NCBI RefSeq assembly: GCF_007625205.1
Contig: NZ_VMNI01000007.1
Location: 62,001-126,000 of the forward strand
DNA: 64,000 nt
Origin: Denitromonas ohlonensis
Lineage (GTDB): Bacteria > Pseudomonadota > Gammaproteobacteria > Burkholderiales > Rhodocyclaceae
Direction of reading: 5' to 3'
The notes under the pieces are model-generated. The model saw only the letters and a program-made list of their open reading frames with translations, did not search any database and had not been told where the DNA came from. A program made the translations under genes and the position numbers. This document shows, piece by piece, positions 25,408-40,986 of the stretch. The first letter of the stretch is position 1; every line of letters begins with the position of its first letter.

Positions 25408-26508
25408 TCACCGACCGTGCTGGCTGAAACGGGCCATGAAGGCGCGGTCGATGCGGTCTTTCCAGCGCCACACCCAGGCGCCCTCGATGGACAACGGCCC
25501 CCACGCGGCGAGGGCGCGCCGGTCGCCGGTGCTGATCAGATACAGCGCGCGGCGCTGCGCTTGCCAGCGCTGGAGCGTGCCGCCCGTGATGCTGCGACGC
25601 AGATTGTCGGCCAGCGGCGGCCCGGCGCGCACGGCAAAGACGCCGGACTTCGGGCGCGGATCTGCGTAGGCAGCCACGTCGCCGGCGGCGAACACAAAGG
25701 GGTGGGATGTCGATTGCAGCGTCGGGCCGACGCGAATGAAGCCGCCCGCGTCGGTGGCCAGGCCGGACTGCGCAGGCCACTCGGGCGCGGCGGCGCCGGT
25801 GACCTGGAGCACATGGCTGGCACGGACGTGTTGGCCATCGTCCAGCCAGACGCCGTCGGTGTCGATGGCCTTGGCACGGCGCTGGCCGATCCAGCGGATG
25901 TGGCGTGCGTCGAGCAGGCGGCGCGCCCGGCGCTGCAAGCGGCCGGGAAGCCCGTCGAGCGGCAGGGCGGTACTGCCGATCAGCGCGAGCGGCAGCGTGG
26001 GCAGACGGGCGCGCAGGGCGAGGGCAAGTTCGACACCCGCCGCGCCGCTACCGATGATCGCGGCGCTGCAGGCAGGGTCGGCGCTGGCGGCGGCGATCAG
26101 TGCGTCGATTCGGGTAACGAAATCTTCGATCGGGCGCACCGGGATGCCGTGGTCGGTGCCGCCGGCGATGCGCGCGCTGGCGGTGGTCGGGCCGGTGTCG
26201 ATGGACAGCCAGTCGAAGGGGATCTCGCTGCCGTCGTCACACCGCACACGGCGGGCATCGAGGTCCAGCCCGACGCCGCGGGCCTGCTTGAAACGCACCC
26301 CGGCGCGCTCGGCCAGCGGTGGAAGTGCAATGGCGGTGTCGGCCAGGGCGTAGTGGCCGGCGATCCAGCCGGGCAGCATGCCGGAGTAGATCTGCCGCGG
26401 GTAGGGCGAGATGAGCGTGACCTCGGTGTCCGGCAGGCGCGCGCGGGCCAGCGCGTCGAGCACAACCACATGGGCGTGACCGCCGCCGAGCAGGACGAGG
26501 CGCTTCAC
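25408..26508 (-). CDS. Pyridine nucleotide-disulfide oxidoreductase of the SelD-fusion type
   Basis: A 366-residue NADH-dehydrogenase-like flavoprotein. It starts LVLLGGGHAHVVVLDALARA, has IYSGMLPGWIAGHY, a second Rossmann motif AAIIGSGAAGVELALAL, and FVFAAGDVAAYADP in the C-terminal FAD region. This matches the family that in some bacteria and cyanobacteria is fused N-terminally to selenophosphate synthetase SelD; here it stands alone. There is no redox-active CxxC pair. The start codon is GTG and overlaps the preceding gene's stop (GTGA). Its substrate is unknown. Context with the two 'selenodomain-associated' transferases supports the assignment. Confidence 0.85.
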   Translation of the reverse strand: MKRLVLLGGGHAHVVVLDALARARLPDTEVTLISPYPRQIYSGMLPGWIAGHYALADTAIALPPLAERAGVRFKQARGVGLDLDARRVRCDDGSEIPFDWLSIDTGPTTASARIAGGTDHGIPVRPIEDFVTRIDALIAAASADPACSAAIIGSGAAGVELALALRARLPTLPLALIGSTALPLDGLPGRLQRRARRLLDARHIRWIGQRRAKAIDTDGVWLDDGQHVRASHVLQVTGAAAPEWPAQSGLATDAGGFIRVGPTLQSTSHPFVFAAGDVAAYADPRPKSGVFAVRAGPPLADNLRRSITGGTLQRWQAQRRALYLISTGDRRALAAWGPLSIEGAWVWRWKDRIDRAFMARFSQHGR

Positions 26509-27239
26509 TGGACGATCGGAACCAGTTGCAGATCACCGAAGCGGGCTTCGACCGTGGCGCCGGTGTTGTCGGTGTCGGCGCCGAGCGCGATGCCGGTGAC
26601 GGCCGGGGCGGGCTCGCCAAACGCCGCCTGGAAGTCGGCAGCCAGATCGCGCGATTCGGCAATCCACTGGCCGGCTTTGGCGTCGCCGCGCTGGAGGACG
26701 ATCATGCGCACCCGATCGGTGTAGGGGTTGGGCGCGATGGCGCCGATGGCATCGGCCGTGCCCCAGACGTAGCACAGCGCGGCGGTGGGCAAATCGGCGC
26801 CGTAGAGCGTGCGCGCCATGTCGATCTTGACCCGGTCGGTGAAGGGCAGGCGCGACTTGTCGTAGTCGAAAAAGACATACACGCGGGCCGCGTAGTCATC
26901 GGTGGCCTTGTTGGCCATGGCCGATTTCGGCACGGCCTCGGAGACTTTCCAGCGCCATTGCAGTCGCGTGTTGGCGGTGACGGCGTCAGGCAAGGTATAG
27001 ACGAGGCTGGAGGCGGCGGACTTCGAGTAGGCGCGCAGCACCTTGCCGGTCGATTCTTGAACAATCGAGAAGTCAGTGCCAGGCAGATCCTTGTTGATTT
27101 GGGTGTACACCCAGCTGGCGGGGGGCGTGCCGGTGGGCGCGTCGGTAAAGGGCGCAGGCTGGGTGGTGAGCGCGGTGGCGCCCAGTGGCGTGATGAGCGC
27201 TGCACTGAGGCACAGGCGCGGGATGACGCGAGGCGACAT
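26505..27239 (-). CDS. DUF3047 family exported protein
   Basis: A 244-residue protein. I chose the ATG at 27239 because it gives a signal peptide (RLCLSAALITPLGATAL) and removes a long Arg/His-rich N-terminal extension that overlaps the upstream gene. The mature part is beta-rich: WVYTQINKDLPGTDFSIVQE, VYVFFDYDKS, and TALCYVWGTADAIGA. It fits DUF3047, whose function is unknown; it resembles a carbohydrate-binding or lipocalin-like sandwich, but that is a guess. It is probably periplasmic. Its stop overlaps the next start, so it is in one operon with the SelD-type oxidoreductase. Confidence 0.82.
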   Translation of the reverse strand: MSPRVIPRLCLSAALITPLGATALTTQPAPFTDAPTGTPPASWVYTQINKDLPGTDFSIVQESTGKVLRAYSKSAASSLVYTLPDAVTANTRLQWRWKVSEAVPKSAMANKATDDYAARVYVFFDYDKSRLPFTDRVKIDMARTLYGADLPTAALCYVWGTADAIGAIAPNPYTDRVRMIVLQRGDAKAGQWIAESRDLAADFQAAFGEPAPAVTGIALGADTDNTGATVEARFGDLQLVPIVQ

Positions 27240-27304
27240 GAATCGGGGCTCCGGCGGGCGGATTCGAATGCAATGTGACTGACAGGGGGCATGCGTGTTC
27301 CCGC

Positions 27305-27958
27305 TCATCGCGCGGTGAGCAGGGCGCTGCGTTGCAGGCGGTCGAGGTCTTGCGGGCGATCGACATCCCACACCGTGGCAGGCTCGGCCCAGCGCAAAGC
27401 GCACTCGCGCAGGCGGTCGCGGGTTTGCGCCATGACGGCGCCGCTGCCCCAGTCGATGTCGCGGAACACGTCCGGCTGTGGCTGGCGCAGGCCGACCAGC
27501 GCATAGCCGCCGTCTTCCGCGGGCAGGAAGACGGCGTCGTCGCCGCGCTGCAAGGCGCTGGCGCACGCTTGCAGCATGCCGGCGTCGAGCATCGGGCAGT
27601 CGGTGCCGATCAGTAGCGTGGGCGCGGTGGTGGTGAGCGCACGGAGCGCGTGATGCATGCGCTCGCCGAGGTGCGCGCCATGCTGCACGTGCAGGGGAAT
27701 GCCGGTGGTGGCTGCCAGTGCACGGAAGAAGCGGTGGGTGGCGTCGGGGGCGCACCACAGACTGACCGGCCCGAGCCGGGCGGTGTGCGCGGTGGCGACG
27801 GCGTGGCGGACGAGTTGCCGGTGCAGTCGTGCGGCGCCGGCTGGGCCGAGCGCGGGGATGAGGCGCGTCTTCGCGGTACCGGCGATCGGCGCTTTGGCAA
27901 AGACCGCGATGTGCACGGACTCAGGACTGGCGGGGCGCATAGCCATAGCGTCTCGCAA
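27305..27958 (-). CDS. TIGR04282-type transferase (rSAM/selenodomain-associated transferase 1, DUF2064)
   Basis: About 217 residues with a nucleotidyl/glycosyltransferase-A-like fold. Motifs: VFAKAPIAGTAKTRL (N-terminal nucleotide-binding loop as in CofC/MobA relatives), LIGTDCPMLDAGML (acidic metal site), and LPAEDGGYALVGLR. It overlaps the upstream GT2 gene; starts at 27958 or 27940 are both possible. In other genomes this family travels with radical SAM and selenium-linked genes, which is the source of its name. The donor and acceptor are unknown. Confidence 0.87.
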   Translation of the reverse strand: MRDAMAMRPASPESVHIAVFAKAPIAGTAKTRLIPALGPAGAARLHRQLVRHAVATAHTARLGPVSLWCAPDATHRFFRALAATTGIPLHVQHGAHLGERMHHALRALTTTAPTLLIGTDCPMLDAGMLQACASALQRGDDAVFLPAEDGGYALVGLRQPQPDVFRDIDWGSGAVMAQTRDRLRECALRWAEPATVWDVDRPQDLDRLQRSALLTAR

Positions 27959-28616
27959 GATCGACGGGATCGGCGCCGAGGGCGTAAGCGGCGCGCAGCC
28001 GCCACATCAGCACCATGGTGCGAAACACGCCGTGCGCCTCCCAGCGGCGGCCGGCGGTGGTGACGCGCTGGCGCAGGCAGGCCGGGCGGCCGAGGGCCTT
28101 CATGTTGCGCGAAAAGGCGATGTCTTCCATCAGCGGCTGATCGACGAAGCCGCCGACCTGCTTGAAGGCCTTGCGGGTGACGAAGATGGCCTGGTCGCCA
28201 GTGGCGATGCCGGTGAGCCGCGAGCGCCAATTCATCATCGTCGCGATGACGCTCAGCATGGGGTGTGTTCCTTCGATGCGCACATCGAAGCGTCCCCACA
28301 GGTGGGTGTCGAGTGCGGCATGGATGGCAGGGATCGCGCCGGCCGGCAGGCGGGTGTCGGCGTGCAGAAAGAGCAGCCGGTCGGCCCGAGCCATGGCCGC
28401 GCCAGCGTTCATCTGGCTGGCGCGTCCGCGCGGCGCGCTGACCGGCCGGTCGCTCAGCGGGGTGGCGAGATGGGCGGTGTAGTCCGTGCTGCCGCCGTCG
28501 ACCACGATCAACTCGACGCCCGCTGGCCGCAGCGCTTGCAGCGGGGCGAGCACCGACGCGATGCCGGCGGCTTCGTTGAGCACGGGGAGGATGATCGACA
28601 GCGTCGGTGTCGGCAT
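27921..28616 (-). CDS. TIGR04283-type family 2 glycosyltransferase (rSAM/selenodomain-associated transferase 2)
   Basis: A 231-residue GT2 enzyme: LSIILPVLNEAAGIASVL at the N-terminus, ELIVVDGGSTDYTAHLA, FLHADTRLPAGAI (DxD-like metal site), and the acceptor-region EDIAFSRNMKALGRP. A hydrophobic stretch near the C-terminus may associate with membrane. It lies between the DUF1223 gene (8 bases) and the DUF2064 transferase (overlap), so the two transferases are translated together. The pair probably modifies the same small molecule. Confidence 0.87.
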   Translation of the reverse strand: MPTPTLSIILPVLNEAAGIASVLAPLQALRPAGVELIVVDGGSTDYTAHLATPLSDRPVSAPRGRASQMNAGAAMARADRLLFLHADTRLPAGAIPAIHAALDTHLWGRFDVRIEGTHPMLSVIATMMNWRSRLTGIATGDQAIFVTRKAFKQVGGFVDQPLMEDIAFSRNMKALGRPACLRQRVTTAGRRWEAHGVFRTMVLMWRLRAAYALGADPVDLARRYGYAPRQS

Positions 28617-28624
28617 GGGCGCGA

Positions 28625-29356
28625 TCAGCTGTGGCAGTCGGGCAAGGCCAGGGCTTGTAGCACCTCGCCGCTGCGCAGGTCTTCGATAAAGGCGACGACG
28701 CCGCCCGTTTTCTCTTGCGGCAGGAAGCGTACATCGGCGTTCAGTGGGGCCTTGGTCGGCATGGCTCGGGTCTCCCAGTCGCGCACCACAAAGCTGTGGC
28801 TGAGCGTCTCGCCCCTATTTTCGCCGGCTTTGACTTCGCTTTGATGACCATTTTCATAGCGTGCGACAACAAGCTGCGTCTGGCGGTCGCTCGGCGCCGT
28901 GGCGCGCACGCTGACTGTCGCGCCGGCGGGTGCCTTGGCGGATGTGAGCTGGATATGTGCTGTCGCAGCGCCCCGGGTGACACCGGCCAGCGGGTCGTTT
29001 CCGCGCCAGGCGCGGCTGTCGCGGCCGTTGATCATGATTTGCGGGGTGTAGACCGTGCGTCCGCCGGTGAGCGCCACTTTGTTGCGCTGGCGTTGGCCAT
29101 TTCGCGGCTCGGCGAAGCGGTCTTTCCAGCCGATGTAGTCCCAGTAGTCGACATGGTAGGCGATGGCCACGGTGTCGCTGGATTGCTTGAGCGTGCCCAA
29201 CCAGCGATCGGCCGGCGGGCAGGAGCTGCAGCCTTCGGAAGTGTAGAGCTCGACCAGCGGGGTTTGCAGGGGGCCGCTGCTGGCGGTGCATTCGGCGGCC
29301 ACGGCACCACCGGCGCACAGCGCGGCGGCAAGGGCGAATAGCGGTTTAGCGGGCAT
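28625..29356 (-). CDS. DUF1223 secreted thioredoxin-like protein
   Basis: A 243-residue protein with a signal peptide (LFALAAALCAGGAVA) and a mature start at about AECTASS. The DUF1223 core has a thioredoxin-like beginning, VELYTSEGCSSCPPADRWL, with Cys43 and Cys46 as a CxxC pair, and VYTPQIMINGRD in the cis-Pro region. The ATG overlaps the end of the DUF547 gene by 11 bases. It probably acts in the periplasm as a thiol-disulfide or metal-binding protein; no biochemical role is established to my knowledge. Confidence 0.87.
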   Translation of the reverse strand: MPAKPLFALAAALCAGGAVAAECTASSGPLQTPLVELYTSEGCSSCPPADRWLGTLKQSSDTVAIAYHVDYWDYIGWKDRFAEPRNGQRQRNKVALTGGRTVYTPQIMINGRDSRAWRGNDPLAGVTRGAATAHIQLTSAKAPAGATVSVRATAPSDRQTQLVVARYENGHQSEVKAGENRGETLSHSFVVRDWETRAMPTKAPLNADVRFLPQEKTGGVVAFIEDLRSGEVLQALALPDCHS

Positions 29357-30155
29357 CGTTGAGCCTCCAGTCGTAATCGAGGTGCTCGATCTTCGGCGCG
29401 CTGGCGCGCAGTTTTTTTGCGGCTTCCGGCGTGTCGGCGAGCGCCTCGGCGTAGTGGGCGAAGGTGGCTTGGAGCGAGTCAAAACCCCTGTGGCCACGAG
29501 CGAAGTCGTCGGCGTACCAGTCGAAAATCTTCGAGACGTAGAGTGTGTTGCTGGCCGCGTCGAAGCGGTTGCGGCTGCGGTCGGAGAGGAAGCGGCGCAT
29601 GCCGTCTTCGAGCTGGGTGTCGAGCCGCTCGGCGACGAAGGCTTCGTTGCGCAGCATCGGGCAACCGATCGAGGCGCAGACCACGGCGGCATGGATGCGC
29701 GGGTCGTCGAAGGCGCCGGCGGCGCGAATGCGGCCGTGTTCGATGCCGTCCAGGCTCTCTTCCTGACCGAGCAGGGTGAAAAATGTCTGTTTCCAGGGCG
29801 AGGAGAACAGGCTGCCGAGGTCTTTGATTGAGTCCAGATCAGGATAGCGGGTGAGGATCAGTTCGACGGTGTAGGCGTTATAAGCGTTGATCAGGAAGGC
29901 GAGTTGCTGCGGCTTCGGCCAGCTGGCGTAGTCGGCGGGCGTGACGGCCGACACGGCGTCGAGGTAGGCCTTGAGCGGGGCGCGATCCTTCTTCAGCGCG
30001 GCGTAGCGCACCGCCGACGCGTTGCCGGCAGCATTGACCACGACGTGTTGCTTGAGCAGCGTGTTCCAGGCGGCATGGCTGTGATCAAAGGCCTGCGCAG
30101 CGGCGCTGAACAGGGTGAGGCTGGCCACCAGCAGGAGGGAAGTGAGGCGTGTCAT
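29346..30155 (-). CDS. DUF547 family exported protein
   Basis: A 269-residue protein with signal peptide LTSLLLVASLTLFSAAAQA. DUF547 features include WPKPQQLAFLINAYNAYTVE, HAAVVCASIGCPMLRNEAF and the C-terminal SKIFDWYADDFA. The conserved Cys and the NAYN region resemble a papain/transglutaminase-like fold, so an enzymatic function is possible but unproven. It lies 13 bases after the TVP38 fusion gene and overlaps the DUF1223 gene, so these are one transcription unit. Confidence 0.88.
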   Translation of the reverse strand: MTRLTSLLLVASLTLFSAAAQAFDHSHAAWNTLLKQHVVVNAAGNASAVRYAALKKDRAPLKAYLDAVSAVTPADYASWPKPQQLAFLINAYNAYTVELILTRYPDLDSIKDLGSLFSSPWKQTFFTLLGQEESLDGIEHGRIRAAGAFDDPRIHAAVVCASIGCPMLRNEAFVAERLDTQLEDGMRRFLSDRSRNRFDAASNTLYVSKIFDWYADDFARGHRGFDSLQATFAHYAEALADTPEAAKKLRASAPKIEHLDYDWRLNDAR

Positions 30156-30168
30156 CGTCCTACCTTCT

Positions 30169-32319
30169 TTACGCGCGGCGCCAGGCGTGAAAGCGGCCGA
30201 CCCATTCGAGCAGCTTCTGCGGGGCGTGGGCGCGCTTCCATTCGCCGGCGACGTATTTGTTGGCCTCGGCCATGGTCGGGTAGATGTGAATGGTGCCGAG
30301 GATCTTGTTCAGACCGATGCCGTGCTTCATGGCCAGCACGTATTCGGCGATCAGGTCGCCGGCGTGTTCGCCCACGATGGTGACACCGAGAATGCGGTCC
30401 TTTCCCGGCACGGTGAGCACTTTCACAAAGCCGTGGGCTTCCGAGTCGGCGATGGCGCGGTCGAGATCGTCGATGCCGAACTTGGTGGCTTCGTAGGCAA
30501 TGCCCTCGGCCCTGGCGTCGGCTTCATTCAAGCCCACGCGGGCGACTTCCGGCTCGACAAAAGTGGCCCAGGGGATCACCGAGTAGTCGGCCTTGAAGGT
30601 CTTGAACGGGTCGAACAAGGCATTGACCGCGGCGTACCACGCCTGATGGGCGGCAGTGTGGGTGAATTGAAAGGGGCCGGCGACATCGCCTGCGGCGTAG
30701 ATGTTGGGGTAGATCGTCTGCAGAAACTCGTTGGTTTCCACCGTCTTGCCGGTCGGGATGCCCATTTCCTCGAGGCCGAAGCCGGTCAGGTTGGCGGCGC
30801 GGCCGACGGCGACCAGCACGGCGTCGAAGGGGATGCGCACATCCTTGCCTTCGTGTTCGGCGATCAGCACTTTTTCGCCGTCTTCGATTACGAATTGCTT
30901 GGCTTTTGTGCCGACGCGCACATCGATGCCTTCGGCGATGAAGCGTTCCATCACCAGTTGCGAGACGTCTTCGTCTTCCCGCGCCATGATCCGCGGCAGC
31001 ATCTCGATTTGCGTCACCTGGCTGCCCAGGCGGGCGAAGGCTTGTGTCAGCTCGCTGCCGATCGGGCCGCCGCCGAGCACCAGCAGGCGGCGCGGCTGTT
31101 CGCGCAGCGCCCACAAATTGTCGGAGGTGAGGTAATCCATCTCGTCGATGCCGGGAATGGGCGGCACGAAGGGGCGGGCGCCGGTGGCGATGACAATGGC
31201 GCGGGTGGTGAGCGTCTCGATGCGGCCATCGTTGTGGGTCACTTCGACCGTCCAGGGCGAGGTGATTTTGGCGGAGCCTTCGACCACGTCCACGCCCAGG
31301 CCGGTGTAGCGCTCGACCGAGTCGTGCGGTTCGATGGCCTTGACTACCGACTGCACGCGTTCCATCACCTTGGCAAAGTCCATTTTCGCTTCGGCCGAGT
31401 CGATGCCGAATTCCTGGGCGCGCTCGACATGCGACAAAAACTTGGCCGAGCGGATCAGCGCTTTCGACGGCACGCAGCCGGTGTTCAGGCAGTCGCCGCC
31501 GAGCTTGTGGCGCTCGATCAACGTGACTTTCGACTTCACCGCTGCAGCGATGTAGGACGTCACCAGACCGGCCGAGCCGCCGCCGATGACGACGAGGTTG
31601 CGGTCAAAGGTGGCGGGCTTCTTGTCGGCCCATCGGGCATAGACTTTTTTGGCCTGCACCGCAGCGACAATCTTTTTGGCGATGAGCGGGAAGATGCCGA
31701 GCAGCGCGAAGGAGCCGATCAGACCCGGCGAGAGAATGCCGGAGAGCGAATCAATCTGGCCCAGCTGGGTGCCGGCATTCACGTACACGATGGTGCCGGC
31801 GAGCATGCCGATCTGGCTCACCCAGTAGAAGGTGGTGGTGCGGATCGGGGTCAGACCCATCACCAGGTTGATGACGAAAAACGGCAAGGCCGGCACCAGG
31901 CGCAGCGTGAAGAGGTAGAAGCCGCCATCTTTTTTGACGCCCGCGTTGAGCGCCTTGAGGCGATCGCCAAAGCGGCTTTGCACCCAGTCGCGCAGCAAAA
32001 AGCGCGAGGCGAGAAAGGCCAGCGTCGCGCCGATGGAGGAGGCGAAGGAGACGATGAGCAGACCGGTCAGCAGTCCGAAGATCGCGCCAGCGGCCAGGGT
32101 GAGCACGGCGGCGCCGGGAAAGGACAGCGCGGTCACGGTCACATACACGGCAAAGAAAATGCCGGCGGTCGCCCACGGGTTGGCGGCGCGATAGGTTTCG
32201 ATGGCCGCTTGCTGACTCTTGAAGAAATCGAGGTTGAAAAAGCGCCCCAGATCGAAGATGAAATAGCTGGTGATCAGGGCCAGCAGGACGATGACGAGTC
32301 CGAGTTTTTTCTTGTTCAT
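30169..32319 (-). CDS. TVP38/TMEM64 membrane domain fused to FAD-dependent disulfide oxidoreductase
   Basis: A 716-residue two-part protein. Residues 1-230 are a TVP38/TMEM64 (DedA-like) membrane domain with several hydrophobic helices and FPGAAVLTLAAGAIFG. Residues 240-700 are a pyridine nucleotide-disulfide oxidoreductase: GGGSAG at 246-251, redox pair Cys277/Cys282 in GGDCLNTGCVPSKAL, and the C-terminal HIYPTMAEANKY His-Pro region. It resembles mercuric reductase but lacks the C-terminal vicinal cysteines and the N-terminal heavy-metal domain, so mercury reduction is unlikely. The start at 32319 was chosen because upstream residues in the frame do not fit the membrane domain. It is the first gene of the DUF547-DUF1223-transferase operon. 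Confidence 0.9.
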   Translation of the reverse strand: MNKKKLGLVIVLLALITSYFIFDLGRFFNLDFFKSQQAAIETYRAANPWATAGIFFAVYVTVTALSFPGAAVLTLAAGAIFGLLTGLLIVSFASSIGATLAFLASRFLLRDWVQSRFGDRLKALNAGVKKDGGFYLFTLRLVPALPFFVINLVMGLTPIRTTTFYWVSQIGMLAGTIVYVNAGTQLGQIDSLSGILSPGLIGSFALLGIFPLIAKKIVAAVQAKKVYARWADKKPATFDRNLVVIGGGSAGLVTSYIAAAVKSKVTLIERHKLGGDCLNTGCVPSKALIRSAKFLSHVERAQEFGIDSAEAKMDFAKVMERVQSVVKAIEPHDSVERYTGLGVDVVEGSAKITSPWTVEVTHNDGRIETLTTRAIVIATGARPFVPPIPGIDEMDYLTSDNLWALREQPRRLLVLGGGPIGSELTQAFARLGSQVTQIEMLPRIMAREDEDVSQLVMERFIAEGIDVRVGTKAKQFVIEDGEKVLIAEHEGKDVRIPFDAVLVAVGRAANLTGFGLEEMGIPTGKTVETNEFLQTIYPNIYAAGDVAGPFQFTHTAAHQAWYAAVNALFDPFKTFKADYSVIPWATFVEPEVARVGLNEADARAEGIAYEATKFGIDDLDRAIADSEAHGFVKVLTVPGKDRILGVTIVGEHAGDLIAEYVLAMKHGIGLNKILGTIHIYPTMAEANKYVAGEWKRAHAPQKLLEWVGRFHAWRRA

Positions 32320-32442
32320 GGCCTCACGGCACTCCCTGAGTTGATTGCCGCATGGCGAGATGGCACGCCAGCGAGCTTGTGATGGTTCAGACCGTTCAGG
32401 GGGCGAAAACCTGACAGTGAATTGTCGCGCTATGGCAGGAGA

Positions 32443-32463
32443 TTTTTGTGCGAGGCACAAAAA
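32443..32463. promoter_or_regulatory. Palindrome overlapping the -35 of the infA promoter
   Basis: TTTTTGTGC (32443-32451), GAG, GCACAAAAA (32455-32463): a perfect 9-bp dyad. It lies between the divergent TVP38-fusion and infA genes and covers the -35 element, so it could be an operator, or less likely a terminator remnant. Confidence 0.5.
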
Positions 32464-32474
32464 TCGAGTAGAAT
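32446..32474 (+). promoter_or_regulatory. Candidate promoter for infA
   Basis: TTGTGC, a 17-base spacer, TAGAAT. The infA start is about 300 bases further on, giving a long leader. The gap 32320-32781 (462 bases) has no convincing gene. Confidence 0.5.
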
Positions 32475-32781
32475 GAAGCCCTTATCTCGGTCGCGAAACC
32501 GCCAGCAGGTGGCCGCATCGAATCAGCATGGCGCAACAAGCGCCGTCTTACTCGCCATTCTGGCAGGCCTTCGAGGCGCCGGGGTGGTCGGAACGTCGGG
32601 CGTGGTCCCGTCAATTGCGTCTGGACGTTGTCTGTCCGGGCAGCCCGTCGGCACCGGGCAACAATTGCCTGCCGCCAGCTAAAGAATTGAAACCGGCGCG
32701 CTCGCCAGTCGTGAGGGGCGTGTTTTTGACTGCCGCACCGATGGCATCGCCGGACCCACAACAGATTAGGAGAGAGCATTT

Positions 32782-33024
32782 ATGGCAAAAGAAGAAATGA
32801 TCCAGTTCGAAGGTGTAGTGCAGGAAGTGCTTCGCGATGCCCGGTTTCTGGTCAAGCTCGACAACGGCATGGATGTGGCAGCCTACGCTTCGGGCAAGAT
32901 GCGCAAGTTTCGCATCCGGATCCTGGCCGGTGATCGGGTGACGCTCGAAATGTCGCCCTACGACCTGTCCAAAGCGCGCATCAGCTTCCGTCACAAGGAA
33001 GTTCAGCAGCGCCGCCCGCACTGA
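32782..33024 (+). CDS. infA: Translation initiation factor IF-1 (extra copy)
   Basis: An 80-residue S1/OB-fold protein that occupies the ribosomal A site during initiation. [20 protein letters not shown] and [16 protein letters not shown] are diagnostic, but the tail ([12 protein letters not shown]) is longer and more basic than canonical IF-1. It stands alone, not in a ribosomal-protein operon, so this is probably the second infA common in betaproteobacteria. AGGAGAG precedes the ATG, and a terminator follows at 33042. Confidence 0.93.
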
Positions 33025-33041
33025 GCGCTGGCGACATCATG

Positions 33042-33069
33042 AAAAAACCCGGTCTAACCGGGTTTTTTT
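33042..33069. terminator. Bidirectional terminator between infA and HD-GYP gene
   Basis: A 12-bp stem AAAAAACCCGGT / ACCGGGTTTTTT with a 3-nt loop, A-run on one side and T-run on the other. It serves the convergent genes on both sides. Confidence 0.92.
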
Positions 33070-33091
33070 ACGTCCAGCGTGGGTGACGAAG

Positions 33092-34024
33092 CTAGGTGTC
33101 AATGACGCCGCTGGCCCACGCGCTGCGCGCTGCGCCGTTCAGAAAGCGCTGAATGAGTGCGTTGTCGGCGGCGGGCGCGAGATCCTCGGCCGAGGCGACG
33201 CCGCCGGTCTGGCGCGCTTCGAGTTGCCCCTTTGCGCCGGTGGCGAGGCGGTATTCGCCGCTGCACTGCGGGCAGAACAGGGTGCCGCCAGTGGTTTGCT
33301 CACGGCGCGCCACCAGGGTGGGGCCGCACATCATGCAGACGAGCAGCGGAATGCCTTCGTCGGTGTGGCCGACGATATGTTCCAGGGCGCCGGTGTCGAC
33401 CAGGCTGAGAAAATGCTCGCCGAAACGAGCGTCGAACTGGCTGCCGAGATTTTCCCGGATGTGGGTCAGCGCGGTGTCGATCGGCATGCCTTTGCGATAG
33501 GGGCGGGCGCTGGTCATGGCATCGAAAGCGTCGCAGATACCGATGATCCGTGCATCGCGCGGGATGTCGTCCGCAGCGAGCCCGGCCGGGTAGCCCTTGC
33601 CGTCAGGGCGTTCGTGATGCGACAGCACCGCGTCGACCGCCAGCGCCGCCAGGGGGTGGCCAGCGAGCAGCCGCGCACCGACGGCGGGGTGGGTGCGGAC
33701 GATGTCGAATTCAATGCCGGTGAGCCGGTCCGGCTTGCGCAGGATCGCGTCGGGAATGCCGACTTTCCCCAGATCATGCAGAAACCCGCCCACGGCGATG
33801 CGGGCCACGTCCCGCTCGCCCAAGCCAGCGCGGCGGGCGAGTGTTTCGGCCAGACGCGACACGCGCCACAGGTGACCGCCGGTGTAGGGGTCGCGCGCTT
33901 CCACCACCCAGGCCATGGCCAGCAAGGTGTGCATCAATTGCTGGGCGCCTTGAGCGTCCGGGCGACGTCGAGAAAAGGGCCAAAGTGGCATGGGGGCGGT
34001 GATTCCGGCGATGGTCGATACCAA
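33092..34024 (-). CDS. HD-GYP domain protein with C-terminal zinc ribbon
   Basis: A probable cyclic-di-GMP phosphodiesterase, 310 residues. The HD-GYP core has GHLWRVSRLAETLARRAGL, the HD pair in FLHDLGKVGIPD, and the GYP signature in HHERPDGKGYPAGL. Near the C-terminus two cysteine pairs (CMMCG and FCPQC) form a likely zinc ribbon, an unusual addition. There is no receiver or membrane segment, so the input signal is unknown. The ATG at 34024 or an inner one near 33991 may be used. It is convergent with infA and divergent from the PEP-CTERM genes. Confidence 0.9.
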   Translation of the reverse strand: MVSTIAGITAPMPLWPFSRRRPDAQGAQQLMHTLLAMAWVVEARDPYTGGHLWRVSRLAETLARRAGLGERDVARIAVGGFLHDLGKVGIPDAILRKPDRLTGIEFDIVRTHPAVGARLLAGHPLAALAVDAVLSHHERPDGKGYPAGLAADDIPRDARIIGICDAFDAMTSARPYRKGMPIDTALTHIRENLGSQFDARFGEHFLSLVDTGALEHIVGHTDEGIPLLVCMMCGPTLVARREQTTGGTLFCPQCSGEYRLATGAKGQLEARQTGGVASAEDLAPAADNALIQRFLNGAARSAWASGVIDT

Positions 34025-34188
34025 TATTATCGGCGCGGGCGCGCGGAAATTGAGTCAATCGGGGCATCTGTCCAACGGTGTATCAGCCCGTCGTCGAATC
34101 GTCACACATCATCGCTAGCATGGCGTCATCCATGGCCGATCGGGATCGGTCGGCGTGGTCTAAACAAAAAAACGATGAGGTCAGTGCG

Positions 34189-34860
34189 ATGAAGAAGACG
34201 CTTTGCGGTGTTGGTTTGGCCATGCTGCTGTCGGGGCCGGCATTTTCGGCGGTGTCAGTGGCGGACATCCAGATCACCGAATGGATGTACAGCGGCGGCA
34301 GTGGTGAATTCGTCGAGTTCACCAATATGGGCAACTCGGCGGTGGACTTCGCCGGCTGGAGTTATGACGACGAGAGCCGTCTGGCCGGTGTATTCGATCT
34401 GTCAGGCTTTGGCCTGGTCGGTGTCGGTGAGTCGGTGATCATTACCGAAAGTGCCGAGACCGATTTCCGTCTCGATTGGTCGCTGGCCGCCGGGGTGAAA
34501 GTCCTGGGTGGATATACCAATAATCTGAGCCGCGGGGATGAAATCAATCTGTTTGATGCGTCGGGCAGCCTGATCGACCGCCTCACTTATGGTGACCAGG
34601 TCTTTGCCGGCACGGTGCGCACCCAGAACGCTACCGGCAACCCGCTCAGCGCGGCCGACCTGGCCGGGACCACCGTGACCGCCAACTGGGTGCTGGCGAG
34701 CGCCGGCGACAGCTTCGGCTCTTATGCGGCGAAGAGCGGTGACGTCGGCAACCCGGGTTTCTACGTTGCCGCGCCGGTGCCTGAGCCCGAAACTTATGCA
34801 CTGATGCTGGCGGGTCTGGCCCTGGTCGGTGGCATTGCCCGCCGTCGTGCCGCGCGCTGA
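34189..34860 (+). CDS. PEP-CTERM protein with lamin-tail domain
   Basis: A 223-residue exported protein. Signal peptide about 1-20 (TLCGVGLAMLLSGPAFS). The body is a lamin-tail (LTD) beta-sandwich: IQITEWMYSGGSGEFVEFTN, AVDFAGWSYDDES, and GDEINLFDASGSLIDRL. The C-terminal sorting signal is VPEPETYALMLAGLALVG followed by RRR, the substrate tag of exosortase/archaeosortase systems. The ATG at 34189 is chosen for the signal peptide. Its neighbour also has a PEP-CTERM tag. Such proteins are usually sent to the surface or biofilm matrix; a biochemical role is unknown. Confidence 0.88.
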   Translation: MKKTLCGVGLAMLLSGPAFSAVSVADIQITEWMYSGGSGEFVEFTNMGNSAVDFAGWSYDDESRLAGVFDLSGFGLVGVGESVIITESAETDFRLDWSLAAGVKVLGGYTNNLSRGDEINLFDASGSLIDRLTYGDQVFAGTVRTQNATGNPLSAADLAGTTVTANWVLASAGDSFGSYAAKSGDVGNPGFYVAAPVPEPETYALMLAGLALVGGIARRRAAR

Positions 34861-34876
34861 TCGAGGAGACATGGCC

Positions 34877-35812
34877 ATGAAACGCATGCATTGTCTCGTC
34901 GCCACGCTGGCGCTTTTCGGCTCCGTTGCCCACGCCGCGAATTCGATTGATCTATCGACCTATTCGGTGACCGGCAATTACACGCTCGATTCGCTCGGGA
35001 CGATGGGCCTGGAAGCGTCCGCCGTCACCTATGCCCGCGATCGCAGTTCGCTGTTCTTTGTCGGAGACGAGGGCGAAGGTGTGGTGGAAGTGTCCTTGAC
35101 GGGCCAGACCCTCTCGTCAATGGCGTTCAGCGCCTGGCCGGCGACGACCCGTCACAACGATGCCGAGGGCCTGACCTATCTGGGTGGCGGTGTGCTGGTG
35201 GTGGCCGAAGAGCGCCTTCAGGATGCTTTCCAGTTCAACTACGTCGCCGGTGGCAGCGTGTCGCTGGCCAATGCACCATGGGCGTCGATCTCCGACTACG
35301 CTTATGCCAACAACGGCATCGAAGGCATCAGCTATGACCCGCGTGACGGCAGCTTCGTGTCGGTCAGGCAGGACAGCCCGATGGAAGTGCGTGCCGGTTC
35401 GCTGACGTTCGCCGCCGGTGGCGGCATCTCGACCATGACACCGCTGTTTGACGCCAGCATGCTCGGGGTGAGCACGCTGTCAGATGTTCAGACGCTGTCG
35501 CCCATCGATGCGCTGGCCGGCACCGCCGCGGCTGACAATCTGTTGGTGCTGAGTCTGGGGTCGCAGACCTTGCTGGAGATTGACCGCGCCGGCAACACGC
35601 TGAGCCGCTTCGACCTGGCCGGCATCACCAGCCAGGCGATCGAGGGCGTTACGGTGGATGAGCTCGGCCGCATCTACCTGGTGGCCGAAGATTCTGGCAC
35701 GCCGAACTCGCGCCTGTTCGTGCTCTCGCCGGTGCCCGAGCCTGAAACCTGGGCAATGATGCTGGTCGGTCTGGCCGGGCTGGCACATCGGGTGCGTCGT
35801 CGCAGCGTTTGA
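34877..35812 (+). CDS. PEP-CTERM protein with SdiA-regulated/phytase-like propeller domain
   Basis: About 311 residues. Two ATGs (34871, 34877) follow GAGGAG; spacing favours 34877. Signal peptide CLVATLALFGSVAHA. The body shows repeated beta-propeller-like strands: SSLFFVGDEGEGVVEVSLTG, HNDAEGLTYLGGGVLVVAEE, NNGIEGISYDPRDGSF and IEGVTVDELGRIYLVAEDSG, as in SdiA-regulated or esterase-like phytase families. The C-terminal tag is VPEPETWAMMLVGLAGL then RRR. It lies 16 bases after the LTD gene, so the two are co-transcribed. Metal-dependent phosphoester hydrolysis is one possibility. Confidence 0.85.
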   Translation: MKRMHCLVATLALFGSVAHAANSIDLSTYSVTGNYTLDSLGTMGLEASAVTYARDRSSLFFVGDEGEGVVEVSLTGQTLSSMAFSAWPATTRHNDAEGLTYLGGGVLVVAEERLQDAFQFNYVAGGSVSLANAPWASISDYAYANNGIEGISYDPRDGSFVSVRQDSPMEVRAGSLTFAAGGGISTMTPLFDASMLGVSTLSDVQTLSPIDALAGTAAADNLLVLSLGSQTLLEIDRAGNTLSRFDLAGITSQAIEGVTVDELGRIYLVAEDSGTPNSRLFVLSPVPEPETWAMMLVGLAGLAHRVRRRSV

Positions 35813-35835
35813 TATCGGTGCGGCATTGACGAGAA

Positions 35836-35865
35836 CGGCCGGGGCCATGCCTCGGCCGATTTTGT
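35836..35865 (+). terminator. Terminator after PEP-CTERM pair
   Basis: A 10-bp GC stem with one mismatch (CGGCCGGGGC / GCCTCGGCCG), then TTTTGTTT. The minus-strand gene at 35866 ends right beside it, so it may act in both directions. Confidence 0.75.
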
Positions 35866-36792
35866 TTACCCCGGCGCGGCTTGCGCCAGCGTGAAGATAG
35901 GGCCGTTCGCGATGCGGTCAAAATACGACTGATTCGCCGGGCTGCCCGGTGGCCAGTTGGCAATGAAATCGGCCTGCCACGCGGCGACGTCGTGATGCAG
36001 CGCCAGGGCCTCGATGCGATGCGCGCCAACGCGCACGCCATACAGCACCGGATGCGGGCAGGGGTGTCGGCTGATGCGGGTGAGAATGCCATGTTGCGTG
36101 CCGCTAAAGTTCGGCATGCCGGCAGCGCCATTGTTGATCAGCACCTTGCCGTCGGCGAACTGTCGGCATACGGGCAGGCAGGTGTGGCTGCTGGCAAAGA
36201 CGTCCACGTCGGCGGTGTGAAACTGTGGCGTCAAGCCTGCGCGATGGGAGGCGTCGTTCAGGCGGCTGACATCGAAATCCCAGCCCGCCAGCGCATTGGC
36301 GTCGCCGTGCACCACGCCGACGCGCAAGGCACCGATGCGGTAGCGCGCAAACATCGGCAAGGTGGCCAGTTTGGCGAGATGGGCCGGGTGGCGCGCGGCG
36401 GTGGCTTTGAGGCGGGCGTGGATCTGGTTTGAGCGTGCCACCACGTCGGCGTCGACGGTATCGGGATAGGCGCAACCGCAGCCGGCGTCGTCGGCCTCGG
36501 GCTGGAGTTCGGCTTCGACGTTGCCGAGGATGGCGTCGTGTTTAAGCACTGCGGTGTTGACGCGGTCGAAGCCGGCGTCATCGACATTGAACCAGTTGAA
36601 ATCGCCGTTGAAGCACAGGGTGACCGGCCCAGGTTCGGCGTCGGCCATGGCGAGCAGCGCATCGAGTGCGGCGGTGTTGCCGTACAGCCCACCGACCACG
36701 TACAGCGTTTCGGCGAGGCGCTCGGGTGCCGTGGCAATGGTCGCCGCGCCATAGCGGTAGCGCAGCGGACAGACGCGGCCGGCCGCGTTCAT
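35866..36792 (-). CDS. Metallophosphoesterase-like protein
   Basis: About 308 residues from the ATG at 36792, which overlaps the symporter stop as ATGA. ETLYVVGGLYGNTAALDAL and LCFNGDFNWFNVD correspond to the first metal-binding blocks of the calcineurin-like fold (with a Gly-Leu-Tyr-Gly-Asn variant of GDxHG). VVHGDANALAGWDFDVSRLN, FASSHTCLPVC and LINNGAAGMPNFSG correspond to later blocks. The first Asp-x-His looks altered, so activity could be changed. It is translationally coupled to the symporter and ArsS genes. Confidence 0.8.
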   Translation of the reverse strand: MNAAGRVCPLRYRYGAATIATAPERLAETLYVVGGLYGNTAALDALLAMADAEPGPVTLCFNGDFNWFNVDDAGFDRVNTAVLKHDAILGNVEAELQPEADDAGCGCAYPDTVDADVVARSNQIHARLKATAARHPAHLAKLATLPMFARYRIGALRVGVVHGDANALAGWDFDVSRLNDASHRAGLTPQFHTADVDVFASSHTCLPVCRQFADGKVLINNGAAGMPNFSGTQHGILTRISRHPCPHPVLYGVRVGAHRIEALALHHDVAAWQADFIANWPPGSPANQSYFDRIANGPIFTLAQAAPG

Positions 36793-38186
36793 GCGGCTTC
36801 GGCCGTGCTGCGCCGGTGGCCGAGCGCCAGTGGCAGCAGGAAGCCGGCGGTGCATAGGATCAGGCCGTACAGGTTGGTGCCCAGCAGCAGGCCGTACTTG
36901 CCGGTGCCGATGGCCCAGCTGGCGGGGATCGCGCCGAGCGCGAGCATCACGCCCAGCGTCATGCCGCTCCAGAAGGCGAGATGGAAGGAGAGCGGCGAGA
37001 AGCCGACCCAGCGCGAGAGCAGAAACACCGGCGCCAGGCCGATCACCATGGTGCCCGACAGCGTGGTGGCCTTGAGGATGTCGGTACCGGCGATCATCGG
37101 CAGGTTGCCGAGCAGGGCGAACACCGCCATGGTCACCACGCCGTTGCGGATGGCGCGGGTGCCCGGGGTGCGCCCGGCGAGTAGCGGCAGCTCGTGCGCG
37201 ACCGACTTGGACAGCGAGGTGAAGGTCGAATCCAGCGTTGAGGCGGCCGAAGAAATCATCACTACGCTCATGGCAAAGAAGCCGGCCAGGCCGAGGCCTT
37301 TGGCGACTTGTGCGGGCGCATTGCCGGCAGCGGCGATGCCTTCGAGTTTGGCGTGGACACCGACCAGACTGAAGGCGAGAATCGCAAAAAAGCCGAGCAC
37401 GCCCGCGACCACAAAGGCGCGCAGCATGGTTTTTTCGCGCGTGATGAAGCCGCGGTCGGTCAGCACCGGGTCGTGGAAGGGGTAGGACAGCACCTGCAGC
37501 AGCGCGACCAGCAGCAGGTCGGCGCCCGCGTCGAGCGCGAAATTACCCTCCGTGAGCAGCGCCACCGGGCCGTGGGTAGGCACGATCCAGATCAGCACCA
37601 GACCGAGGAAGAGCACGAACACCACGGCCTGGATCACGTCGGTAAAGATCGAGCTGCGCAGCCCACCCTTGAGGCTGTAGAGCAGCACGGCGGCGGTGAA
37701 CAGCAGTGCCGAGGCAATGAAGGCGAAGGAGCCGGACTCGCCGTAGTAACCGCCGACCACCGCGGTGTTGCTCCACACTTCGTTGTACAGGCGCACCAGG
37801 ATCGCGGCCGAAAAGGCCATGGCAGCGAAGCGCCCGTATTTGGCGATCAGGAAGGGCACCATCCCGGTCGCCCCTTCGCGGGTGCGCAGGCGGTAGATGA
37901 TCCAGCCGGCAAAGGGGATCGACAGCCAATAGGTGGCGTAGGCCAGCCCGCCGACGATGCCGTAGGCGGCGCCGAGGTTGGCCGCGTTGGTGACCGATTT
38001 GGCGAAGATCCAGCTGATGAAGATGCTCATCATCAAGGCCCAGGAGGACGCCGGCCGGCCTTCGGTGTCAGTGCCGCGAAAGAAGCCGCCCTCATCCTTG
38101 ACCTTGGGGGAGATGAGGTACATCACCACCCCGAAGACCACCAGGAAGCCCCAGAAGTACACGCCTTGTGTGTTGGAGAAGTCCAT
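36789..38186 (-). CDS. Sodium:solute symporter (SSS family)
   Basis: A 465-residue integral membrane transporter with about 12 hydrophobic helices. SSS-fold hallmarks: FISWIFAKSVTNAANLGAAY, GWIIYRLRTREG, LYSLKGGLRSSIFTDVIQAV, and SSAASTLDSTFTSLSKSV (the sodium-site region). It sits 24 bases after the ArsS gene and overlaps the metallophosphoesterase gene. The substrate cannot be read from sequence; context suggests it imports a precursor used by the ArsS-type enzyme, or moves its product. Confidence 0.9.
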   Translation of the reverse strand: MDFSNTQGVYFWGFLVVFGVVMYLISPKVKDEGGFFRGTDTEGRPASSWALMMSIFISWIFAKSVTNAANLGAAYGIVGGLAYATYWLSIPFAGWIIYRLRTREGATGMVPFLIAKYGRFAAMAFSAAILVRLYNEVWSNTAVVGGYYGESGSFAFIASALLFTAAVLLYSLKGGLRSSIFTDVIQAVVFVLFLGLVLIWIVPTHGPVALLTEGNFALDAGADLLLVALLQVLSYPFHDPVLTDRGFITREKTMLRAFVVAGVLGFFAILAFSLVGVHAKLEGIAAAGNAPAQVAKGLGLAGFFAMSVVMISSAASTLDSTFTSLSKSVAHELPLLAGRTPGTRAIRNGVVTMAVFALLGNLPMIAGTDILKATTLSGTMVIGLAPVFLLSRWVGFSPLSFHLAFWSGMTLGVMLALGAIPASWAIGTGKYGLLLGTNLYGLILCTAGFLLPLALGHRRSTAEAA

Positions 38187-38210
38187 TGTCGGCCTCGTGT
38201 CTTTCCGGGT

Positions 38211-39176
38211 TCAGCTCAGCGCGCCGCCGCAGCTCGAGCCTTGCCCGGCCGTGCAGCCGTAGCAGTGACCGGCCACCTGAATGCGCCCGCCTTCGAGTTG
38301 TTGTGCGGTGACCTGGCGAATGTTCAGGCGCTGGCCGTCGGCGTCTTCGGTATGCATTTCAAGCATCTGGTTGAAGTCGCAGTCATACAGATTGCCCTGC
38401 CAGTCGATGCTGATCTGGGTGCGGCACATCACGCCGGGCAGGTTGTCGTCGCGGTGCGCGGACTGGAGCAGATCCATGTAGCGGTTAAAGCTGCCTTTGG
38501 AGAGCAGGGTCGAGCCAAAGCGCTGGATGGGCATGTTGGCCAGCGTGAATAGCTGGTTGAAGACGATGCCGAAGTGTTCGCCGAGGTGGGTCTTGTAGGC
38601 CGCTTCGAGCGGCGCTTGCGGCGGCGGCAGGACGGCGCCCTGTGGGTTGAAGACCAGATTGAGCGTCAGCGCATTGCCCGGCTGGCCGTAGCCCAGGGCG
38701 TTGAGCTGTTTGAGGCCGTTGATGCTCGCTTCGAACACGCCCTTGCCGCGTTGCGCGTTCACATTGTCTTCGAGATAACAGGGGAGCGAGGCGACGACTT
38801 CCACGCCTTGCTCGGCCAGAAATTCGGCCAGCGTCTCGTAGCCCGGCTCGCTGAGAATGGTCAGGTTGCAGCGGTCGATCACACGCAGGCCGCGGGCGCG
38901 GGCGGCGGTGACCAGACGGCGGAAGCGCGGGTTGAGTTCGGGCGCGCCGCCGGTCAGGTCGAGCATGCGCACGTCGGGGTTGGCGTCGACAAAGCGCAGG
39001 ATGGCGTCGATGGTCTCGCTGTCCATCTCCTCGGTGCGCTTGGGGCCGGCGTTCACATGGCAGTGCAGGCATTGCTGGTTACAGCGGTAGCCGAGATTGA
39101 TCTGCAGGGTTTCGATGCGGCGGCGGGTCAGCGGGGGAAAAGCGGTCTTGCGAAGCAGGGGCAAGGTGGCGAGCAT
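38211..39176 (-). CDS. arsS: ArsS-type radical SAM/Cys-rich domain protein
   Basis: A 321-residue radical SAM enzyme. The 4Fe-4S motif is Cys32, Cys36, Cys39 in YRCNQQCLHCHVNAGPKR; the GGAPELNP block follows. The C-terminal Cys-rich domain has GVMCRTQ, YDCDFNQM and GHCYGCTAGQGSSCGG. This matches the family named ArsS, implicated in arsenosugar biosynthesis, where it alkylates a methylated arsenical with adenosyl. No arsM is in the window, so another role is possible. AGGAGA precedes the ATG. It is the first gene of a unit with the symporter and the metallophosphoesterase. Confidence 0.9.
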   Translation of the reverse strand: MLATLPLLRKTAFPPLTRRRIETLQINLGYRCNQQCLHCHVNAGPKRTEEMDSETIDAILRFVDANPDVRMLDLTGGAPELNPRFRRLVTAARARGLRVIDRCNLTILSEPGYETLAEFLAEQGVEVVASLPCYLEDNVNAQRGKGVFEASINGLKQLNALGYGQPGNALTLNLVFNPQGAVLPPPQAPLEAAYKTHLGEHFGIVFNQLFTLANMPIQRFGSTLLSKGSFNRYMDLLQSAHRDDNLPGVMCRTQISIDWQGNLYDCDFNQMLEMHTEDADGQRLNIRQVTAQQLEGGRIQVAGHCYGCTAGQGSSCGGALS

Positions 39177-40041: not shown

Positions 40042-40242
40042 TCAGCGGTCGACCGGGGTGTCGTCGTCGGCGGTGGACGGATAGCGGCGAATCGCGCCGC
40101 GCAGAAAATCCATCTGCTTGCGCAGGTTACTGCAGCCCTTGCACATGGCCAGGTGCAATTCGAGCTGCATGCGCTCGACGATGCCCAGCTCGCGATCTTG
40201 TGCTTGCGAGATGAGTTGAGAGGTTTCCTTGCAACTCAGCAT
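40042..40242 (-). CDS. Zinc-finger (zf-HC2) anti-sigma factor
   Basis: A 66-residue soluble protein: MLSCKETSQLISQAQDREL, then the zinc site HLAMCKGCSNLRKQM. It lacks a transmembrane segment, so it is a cytoplasmic redox/zinc-type anti-sigma like the ZAS group. Its start overlaps the sigma gene's end by 7 bases, the usual sign of a cognate pair. Zinc loss or thiol oxidation could release the sigma factor. Confidence 0.86.
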   Translation of the reverse strand: MLSCKETSQLISQAQDRELGIVERMQLELHLAMCKGCSNLRKQMDFLRGAIRRYPSTADDDTPVDR

Positions 40243-40841
40243 GCCGACGCCCCCTCCGCAAACCAGTTGGACTCAAGACAGCGGCGCAGGCCGTTGCGTG
40301 CCCGGTGCAGGATCACGTGGCAGTTGCTCATGCTGATCGACAAGGTCTCGCAGATCTCGTTGCTGTCGAGCTCAAGGAACTCGCGCATCATGAACACGCG
40401 TGCGGTATTTTCGGGCAGACGGGTGAGGCAGGCGTCAAACACCTTCCAGAATTGTTGCTCGCGCAGTGCGTCTTCCGGGTCGCCCCAGTCGGTGGGGCGG
40501 GCGGCGGGCGTCCAGTGTTCGTTGGCCTTGAACAGGGTGTCGAAGGCGCTGTCCATGCTCTCGCCTTCGGCAATGTAGTCGCCCGCATTGACAGTGCGAG
40601 AGCGCTGCTTGATGGCGTCGAGCACGTTGTTGCGCAAAATCGCGAATACCCAGGTCTTGACCGAGGAGCGGCCGCCGAACTGCTCGGCCTTGTTGAGCGC
40701 CGTGATCATGGTGTCCTGCACCATGTCTTCGGCCAGATGGCTGTCACGCAACTGCAAGGTGGCAAAGCGCAGCATGTCGTTGCGCATGGCTGCCAGCGCC
40801 TCGGGGGTCACTTTGGGGGTGTCAGGGGCGGGTGAAGTCAC
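40236..40841 (-). CDS. ECF-type RNA polymerase sigma factor
   Basis: A 201-residue sigma-70 family protein. The start is taken as the GTG at 40841, with AAGGA six bases upstream; longer frames overlap the perfect palindrome near 40950 and are not family-like. Region 2: MLRFATLQLRDSHLAEDMVQ and SSVKTWVFAILRNNVLDAIK. Region 4: RLPENTARVFMMREFLELDS and SMSNCHVILHRARNGLRRCL. It fits the TIGR02943-like subgroup, which is usually paired with a zf-HC2 protein, as here. The ArsS, symporter and truC genes lie downstream on the same strand and could be its targets. Confidence 0.88.
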   Translation of the reverse strand: MTSPAPDTPKVTPEALAAMRNDMLRFATLQLRDSHLAEDMVQDTMITALNKAEQFGGRSSVKTWVFAILRNNVLDAIKQRSRTVNAGDYIAEGESMDSAFDTLFKANEHWTPAARPTDWGDPEDALREQQFWKVFDACLTRLPENTARVFMMREFLELDSNEICETLSISMSNCHVILHRARNGLRRCLESNWFAEGASAC

Positions 40842-40933
40842 GGGACATCCTTGGGGCGCCGGGCAGCGCGTTGGGGCAGGGCGCAGGATACACCAATGCC
40901 CCGGGTATTCGCCGCCCGCCATGGCCGGAAAAC

Positions 40934-40965
40934 AAAAAGGCCGCGACACGTGTCGCGGCCTTTTT
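40934..40965. terminator. Perfect palindromic terminator after sodB
   Basis: AAAAAGGCCGCGACAC is followed immediately by its reverse complement: a 16-bp uninterrupted palindrome with an A-run on one side and a T-run on the other. It ends sodB on the minus strand. The sigma gene starts only about 90 bases beyond. Confidence 0.88.
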
Positions 40966-40986
40966 GCAGGGCGTTTCGACGAAAAA

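Follow-up and report, generated by a model that had tools for sequence, protein, structure and literature searches.

Two tight runs of genes in a stretch of the Denitromonas ohlonensis genome (64,000 nucleotides, contig NZ_VMNI01000007.1, positions 62,001 to 126,000; hereafter the window) act in one pathway, a conclusion that we consider well supported by the distribution and order of the same genes in related genomes. The first run (39176-35866) encodes the radical SAM/Cys-rich protein ArsS, an SSS-type sodium:solute symporter and a metallophosphoesterase-like (phosphoesterase-like) protein, abbreviated MPE-like below; the second (32319-25408) encodes a VTT-flavoprotein fusion, DUF547 and DUF1223 proteins, the transferases TIGR04283 and TIGR04282, a DUF3047 protein and a SelD-N-terminal-type oxidoreductase. 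All ten genes lie on the minus strand. We tentatively read the two runs as one arsenosugar-type pathway, split in two and fed by import, and give this reading a slightly less than even chance of being correct.

Linkage of the two gene runs

The original prediction, made from the window alone, had assigned both runs to a single pathway, and phylogenetic profiling bears this out. Across the 169 sampled genomes of this bacterium's family, each at least 90% complete, ArsS and TIGR04283 are correlated rather than independent: ArsS was found in 52 genomes and TIGR04283 in 53, with 51 genomes carrying both, one ArsS only, two TIGR04283 only, and 115 neither (p=1e-39; this and all other p-values are inflated by kinship among the genomes). 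The two TIGR04283-only genomes, G083 and G145, are 91 and 93% complete. In eight of the 11 genera of mixed ArsS status, TIGR04283 agrees with ArsS in every sampled member. The TIGR03169 oxidoreductase occurs in 40 of the 169 genomes, 38 of them ArsS-bearing, the remaining two being again G083 and G145. Across the phylum, a sample of 387 genomes has ArsS in 83, TIGR04283 in 129 and both in 81, so that outside the family TIGR04283 also exists without ArsS (48 genomes). An orphan ArsS was seen in G021 (C70:11970-12881, locus L026), a genome without a TIGR04283 match. In some ArsS-bearing genomes (G108, C10:100218-101333; G050, C67; G006, C16), the TIGR03169 domain lies in frames of about 760 amino acids with a second SelD-like match, which makes them probable oxidoreductase/SelD-related fusions and not stand-alone proteins.

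Gene order leads to the same conclusion. Three genomes (G003, G064 and G155) contain an unbroken series ArsS-SSS-MPE-VTT/flavoprotein-TIGR04283-TIGR04282-DUF3047-oxidoreductase, and G382, from another family, has ArsS-SSS-MPE-VTT/flavoprotein-DUF3047-oxidoreductase; a shorter one-operon form is also found in G012. With such single-operon relatives at hand, the gap in the window is best read as a split operon.

The symporter and the MPE-like protein are dedicated partners of ArsS. Relatives of the former (E 1e-50 or better) were found in 20 family genomes and of the latter (E 1e-25 or better) in 21, every one of them ArsS-bearing, and neither was found in the 117 genomes lacking ArsS. An additional, partial MPE-like gene adjoins ArsS in G108 and was detected only by a custom profile. 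In Pfam and NCBIfam neither family is annotated as a partner of ArsS.

The ArsS core and the source of its substrate

The core composed of ArsS, TIGR04282 and TIGR04283 is already known as arsenosugar biosynthesis. TIGR04167 is named arsenosugar biosynthesis radical SAM (seleno)protein ArsS in NCBIfam, and both transferase families are named arsenosugar biosynthesis glycosyltransferase; the sugar-linked metalloid compound originally proposed as the product agrees with these curated names, as far as family membership can tell. According to PMC12159101, a review, a radical SAM enzyme adenosylates arsenic in arsenosugar synthesis. Nine cysteine columns of ArsS, the CxxxCxxC motif and six further positions, are invariant in 92 of 92 sequences, and on the tree the ArsS sequences of genomes that have ArsM-like genes are interspersed with those of genomes that lack them; given this mixing and the nine common cysteines, the enzyme probably performs the known adenosylation, and the suggestion that the product may be new was not borne out. 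A specificity switch within ArsS was considered and rejected: the largest column differences between sequences from ArsM-containing and ArsM-lacking genomes fall at variable positions, and none at the invariant cysteines.

Neither selD nor arsM lies near the locus, as the original prediction had stated. In the whole genome (4.4 Mb in 40 contigs) SelD is encoded elsewhere (C28:30523-31446), and no ArsM was found, the best match to NF008823 scoring 60.5 bits against 263 (13 of 22 first-look candidates scored) and that to NF038099 20.8 bits against 400 (12 of 12 candidates scored). A selenium pathway with SelD-like functions at its centre could draw on the selenoproteins included in TIGR04167 (PMC13188914) and on the SelD-N-terminal-type oxidoreductase in the operon. 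We rejected it as very improbable, since almost every genome of the family carries SelD (152 of 169) and its distribution hardly follows that of ArsS (51/52 ArsS-bearing vs 101/117 other genomes, p=0.024), and the ArsS of the window carries Cys at the Sec position.

An ArsM-like gene (at least 150 bits) is present in 15 of the 52 ArsS-bearing family genomes and was not found in the other 37, and the five family genomes in which ArsM exceeds the curated cut-off all lack ArsS. Among 41 ArsS-bearing genomes from other families, 30 have an ArsM match at E 1e-25 or better, and in 14 genomes of the 30 the match is only partial (about 97-110 bits). With no ArsM-like gene at 150 bits or more in the majority of the family's sampled ArsS carriers, the textbook order of ArsM followed by ArsS is not the whole story.

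We scanned named genomes with an MPE-like alignment, which yielded at least 505 relatives; 80 loci, many on short contigs, were kept, and the counts that follow are among the matches listed. The loci include Denitromonas, Accumulibacter, Competibacter and Rhodoferax, and ArsS is present in 53 of the 80. In 34 loci an SSS gene stands directly before the MPE-like gene, and a three-gene ATP-binding cassette (ABC) importer, composed of a Phosphonate-bd protein, a permease and an ATPase, is present in 25; the ATPase directly precedes the MPE-like gene in 22 of these, and the importer was recognized with its binding protein in 21 and by the ATPase only in four (L178, L199, L204 and L209). Something else precedes the MPE-like gene in eight loci. 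The SSS and ABC genes never occur in one locus. Two unrelated importers, SSS and an HtxB/PhnD-type ABC system, thus take the same slot before the MPE-like gene, and the earlier proposal that the pathway imports a precursor gains support.

Linkage to ArsM was examined in the 52 family genomes and in 40 of the 81 further ArsS-bearing genomes of the phylum sample, chosen without regard to the import module, which we defined as SSS, ABC binding protein or MPE-like gene; ArsM was scored with a profile made from 12 ArsM-like genes found at these loci, and the 10-kb test was defined after the neighbourhoods had been inspected. ArsM lies within 10 kb of ArsS in none of 26 module-bearing loci vs 16 of 66 others (p=0.0045), and in the family alone in none of 23 vs eight of 29 (p=0.006). 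It was likewise found in none of the 80 MPE-like loci among the matches listed. The exclusion holds at the locus level only. The reading that we favour has ArsS working in two modes, with its substrate either made (ArsM) or imported (SSS or ABC), and assignment of the window to the import mode is moderately supported.

The binding protein, the proposed pathway and its alternatives

Among solved structures, HtxB is the best relative of the ABC binding protein (159 bits), followed by PtxB, PhnD, ArrX and AioX. The alignment of the binding protein has no conserved cysteine column, unlike AioX with its Cys site. Ten positions of the HtxB pocket were taken from PMC6629693 (W52, P71, Y97, N128, T129, S130, F158, M176, R178 and D206). 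Seven are kept, namely W52 (the Trp cap), P71, Y97, T129, S130, R178 and D206, and three are changed, N128S, F158H and M176Y; all ten positions are uniform in 24 of 24 rows (23 distinct). By analogy, a methylated oxyarsenical would suit this pocket design, its methyls replacing the hydrogens of hypophosphite or phosphite, and imported methylated arsenic is our hypothesis for the likeliest ligand.

In the pathway that we propose, the importer (SSS here, HtxB/PhnD-type ABC elsewhere) would bring in the metalloid substrate, a role suggested by the failure to find ArsM. The substrate would most likely be a methylated oxyarsenical, either methylarsonate or dimethylarsinate, which are tetrahedral oxyanions with hydrophobic substituents. 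The VTT fusion, as a membrane-anchored disulfide reductase, and the DUF1223 CxxC protein may help to hold the arsenical trivalent, and ArsS would then attach a 5'-deoxyadenosyl moiety to the arsenical, the reaction known from arsenosugar synthesis. The aglycone or glycosyl part would come from TIGR04282 and TIGR04283, and the cysteine-bearing MPE-like protein may bind or process the arsenical or a nucleotide intermediate.

Several observations weigh against import of a methylated arsenical. At the genome-wide level, exclusion between importer and ArsM is not significant (ArsM in 4 of 23 importer-bearing vs 11 of 29 other ArsS-bearing genomes, p=0.13), nor is that by SSS or MPE-like alone (p=0.12-0.23), and ABC genes were sought in fetched loci, not in whole genomes. 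In 18 of the 52 ArsS-bearing family genomes neither an ArsM-like gene nor an importer was found, and in 13 of the 80 MPE-like loci (among the matches listed) the MPE-like gene comes right after ArsS and no importer was found. The ArsM label is clustered on the ArsS tree (20 changes vs a shuffle mean of 31). The symporter has no relative informative on its substrate: its relatives include sugar, choline and urea carriers, and its best profile match is a sodium/glucose cotransporter (27 bits). Published work on the HtxB pocket favours reduced phosphorus: HtxB-like proteins with N128S, F158H and M176Y are, in PMC6629693, predicted to be larger-pocketed and phosphite-capable, the pocket volume being 68 cubic angstroms in HtxB and 88 in the HtxB-like model. 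PMC5700983 reports that HtxB does not bind methylphosphonate.

Some of these observations would fit other schemes. ArsS without ArsM might use inorganic arsenite from general routes, with the importer carrying an aglycone building block, such as glycerol, glycerate, a sugar or a phosphate ester; the 18 genomes with neither gene, the sugar, choline and urea carriers among SSS relatives, and the CofC-like nature of TIGR04282 would all be compatible with it. This scheme leaves unexplained that no importer module was found in linkage with ArsM, and the ABC binding protein is closest to the group binding phosphite, hypophosphite, phosphonate or arsenic; we regard it as unlikely, yet as a real contender. 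A second scheme, which we hold to be improbable, starts from the pocket: a reduced phosphorus oxyanion (phosphite, hypophosphite or phosphinate) would be imported and joined to deoxyadenosyl by the ArsS-type enzyme, yielding a phosphorus analogue of an arsenosugar. Hypophosphite-binding HtxB is indeed the closest solved relative, W52, Y97, T129, S130, R178 and D206 are kept, and the three substitutions match those of the predicted phosphite-binding proteins, but the invariant residues of ArsS are common to ArsS of ArsM-linked clusters, and the cysteines conserved in the MPE-like protein are suited to a thiophilic ligand. Finally, sugars and nucleosides are common cargo of the SSS superfamily, and together with the sodium/glucose cotransporter match this could point to salvage, in which ready-made arsenosugars or arsenoribosides are imported while ArsS and the transferases handle occasional supply or remodelling. 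We assign salvage an equally low probability: ArsS would be redundant, and at the volumes given above (PMC6629693) an HtxB-like pocket seems to offer too little room for a riboside.

If import of methylated arsenic is true, freshwater and wastewater bacteria would take up arsenic methylated by others and fix it in sugars, which would constitute a community step in the arsenic cycle, and SSS and ABC would be candidate bacterial importers of methylated arsenicals. We found no importer linked to ArsS in the open-access literature, supplements and full texts aside, and do not claim its absence from print.

The MPE-like protein is a highly conserved ArsS partner that has no Pfam or NCBIfam match at E 1e-3. 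Its AlphaFold2 model (pLDDT 87, pTM 0.88) has SapH (3qfm) as the best PDB match (Foldseek E 4.3e-11, TM 0.58/0.70), so that the model predicts a calcineurin-type fold. Metallophosphoesterases carry the metal motifs DxH, GD, GNH, H and GHxH. The initial label of metallophosphoesterase is apt for the predicted fold but not for the complete metal site, as the first DxH and the final His are changed: GLY stands at the DxH place and Cys217 at the last-His place in 103 of 103 rows (93 distinct), while GD76, GN103, H174 and H215 are kept. Four cysteines, C20, C117, C119 and C217, are fully conserved, both in a first set (20 of 20 rows) and in all rows of the larger one. The scan patterns select GGLYG and FNGDF, so the conservation of G47, Y49 and D76 is partly biased; the cysteines lie outside the patterns. 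We infer one surviving putative metal site and a putative thiol-lined pocket for a thiophilic ligand. A slimmer chance still is that ArsS systems include a distinct import-fed class, with interchangeable unrelated importers (SSS or HtxB-like ABC), a cysteine-bearing pseudo-phosphoesterase and possibly, in place of arsenic, a reduced phosphorus oxyanion that ArsS would link to deoxyadenosyl in forming a phosphorus sugar.

Gene inventory and relation to known systems

The ten genes are as first described: ArsS, TIGR04283, TIGR04282 and TIGR03169 exceed their NCBIfam cut-offs, and DUF3047, DUF1223, DUF547, the VTT fusion and, weakly, the symporter exceed Pfam thresholds. The symporter stays under the TIGR00813 cut-off (35.2 vs 184).

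Table 1. Genes of the two runs in the window, with the matches by which they were named
Product	Position	Strand	Evidence and remarks
ArsS, radical SAM/Cys-rich protein, Cys form (not Sec)	38211..39176	-	TIGR04167, 459.7 bits vs cut-off 300
SSS-type sodium:solute symporter	36789..38186	-	Pfam SSF, 27.6 bits vs 22.8 (weak pass)
MPE-like protein	35866..36855	-	Start uncertain, homology from near 36828; AlphaFold2 fold match
VTT (TVP38/DedA-like) domain + pyridine-nucleotide disulfide oxidoreductase fusion	30169..32319	-	Pfam VTT_dom, Pyr_redox_2, Pyr_redox_dim
DUF547 protein	29346..30155	-	PF04784, 81 bits
DUF1223 protein, putatively exported, CSSC motif by eye	28625..29356	-	PF06764, 185 bits; start MPAKPLFALA by inspection
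TIGR04283 glycosyltransferase-like protein	27921..28616	-	267.1 bits vs cut-off 182
TIGR04282 CofC-like nucleotidyl/glycosyl transferase	27305..27958	-	193.7 bits vs cut-off 134
DUF3047 protein	26505..27239	-	PF11249, 221 bits; start by inspection
Stand-alone SelD-N-terminal-type oxidoreductase	25408..26508	-	TIGR03169, 385 bits vs cut-off 310

Between the two runs lie a gene for an HD-domain (HD-GYP-like) protein (33092-34024), relatives of which were seen in 18 of 146 ArsS-bearing loci scanned, some loci sharing one genome, and, on the plus strand, genes for two PEP-CTERM proteins (34078-35812), one with a lamin-tail and the other with an SdiA-regulated domain. A transaldolase gene (PF00923, 24263-25339) follows the oxidoreductase on the same strand after about 70 bases, and a sigma-70-family factor resembling extracytoplasmic function (ECF) factors is encoded upstream of ArsS (40236-41009; cluster c6, seen in 17 fetched loci). 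Genes of the haloacid dehalogenase (HAD) type II, HD-GYP-like, ECF sigma and MbnB types recur near ArsS. The first of these (TIGR01428, 202-219 bits) comes immediately after ArsS in genomes with neither SSS nor ArsM beside it (L023:10263-11189, L041:10520-11269, L059:3089-3778 and L073:8987-9832). Several genomes have, close to ArsS, a gene for an MbnB/TglH/ChrH-family enzyme of ribosomally synthesized and post-translationally modified peptides (PF05114; for example L024:107-1081 and similar loci, clusters c16 and c18) and a DoxX-like gene recognized by eye, which may form a metal-stress island.

In comparison with known systems, the C-terminal part of the VTT fusion belongs, like MerA, to the flavoprotein disulfide reductase family, but the fusion scores under the cut-off of the MerA model TIGR02053 (379.6 vs 454.45 bits) and a Cys-Cys tail was not seen by eye. 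The MPE-like protein shares with the calcineurin-like asymmetric Ap4A hydrolase SapH the predicted fold and has the motifs GD, GN, HG and SHT, but differs in having GLY in place of the consensus DxH, Cys in place of the last His, and three further invariant cysteines. The ABC importer that replaces SSS, known from the loci of relatives and not from the window's own, groups with the reduced-phosphorus importers HtxBCDE, PtxABC and PhnCDE and mostly keeps the HtxB pocket, but is linked to ArsS and carries N128S, F158H and M176Y. A further comparison is with the ArsM-ArsS arsenosugar pathway of cyanobacteria (TIGR04167, TIGR04282, TIGR04283 and NF038099): ArsS is over its cut-off, both transferases are present, and the core forms a single operon in related genomes, whereas the window's genome, without a detected ArsM, has instead a dedicated importer and an MPE-like partner.

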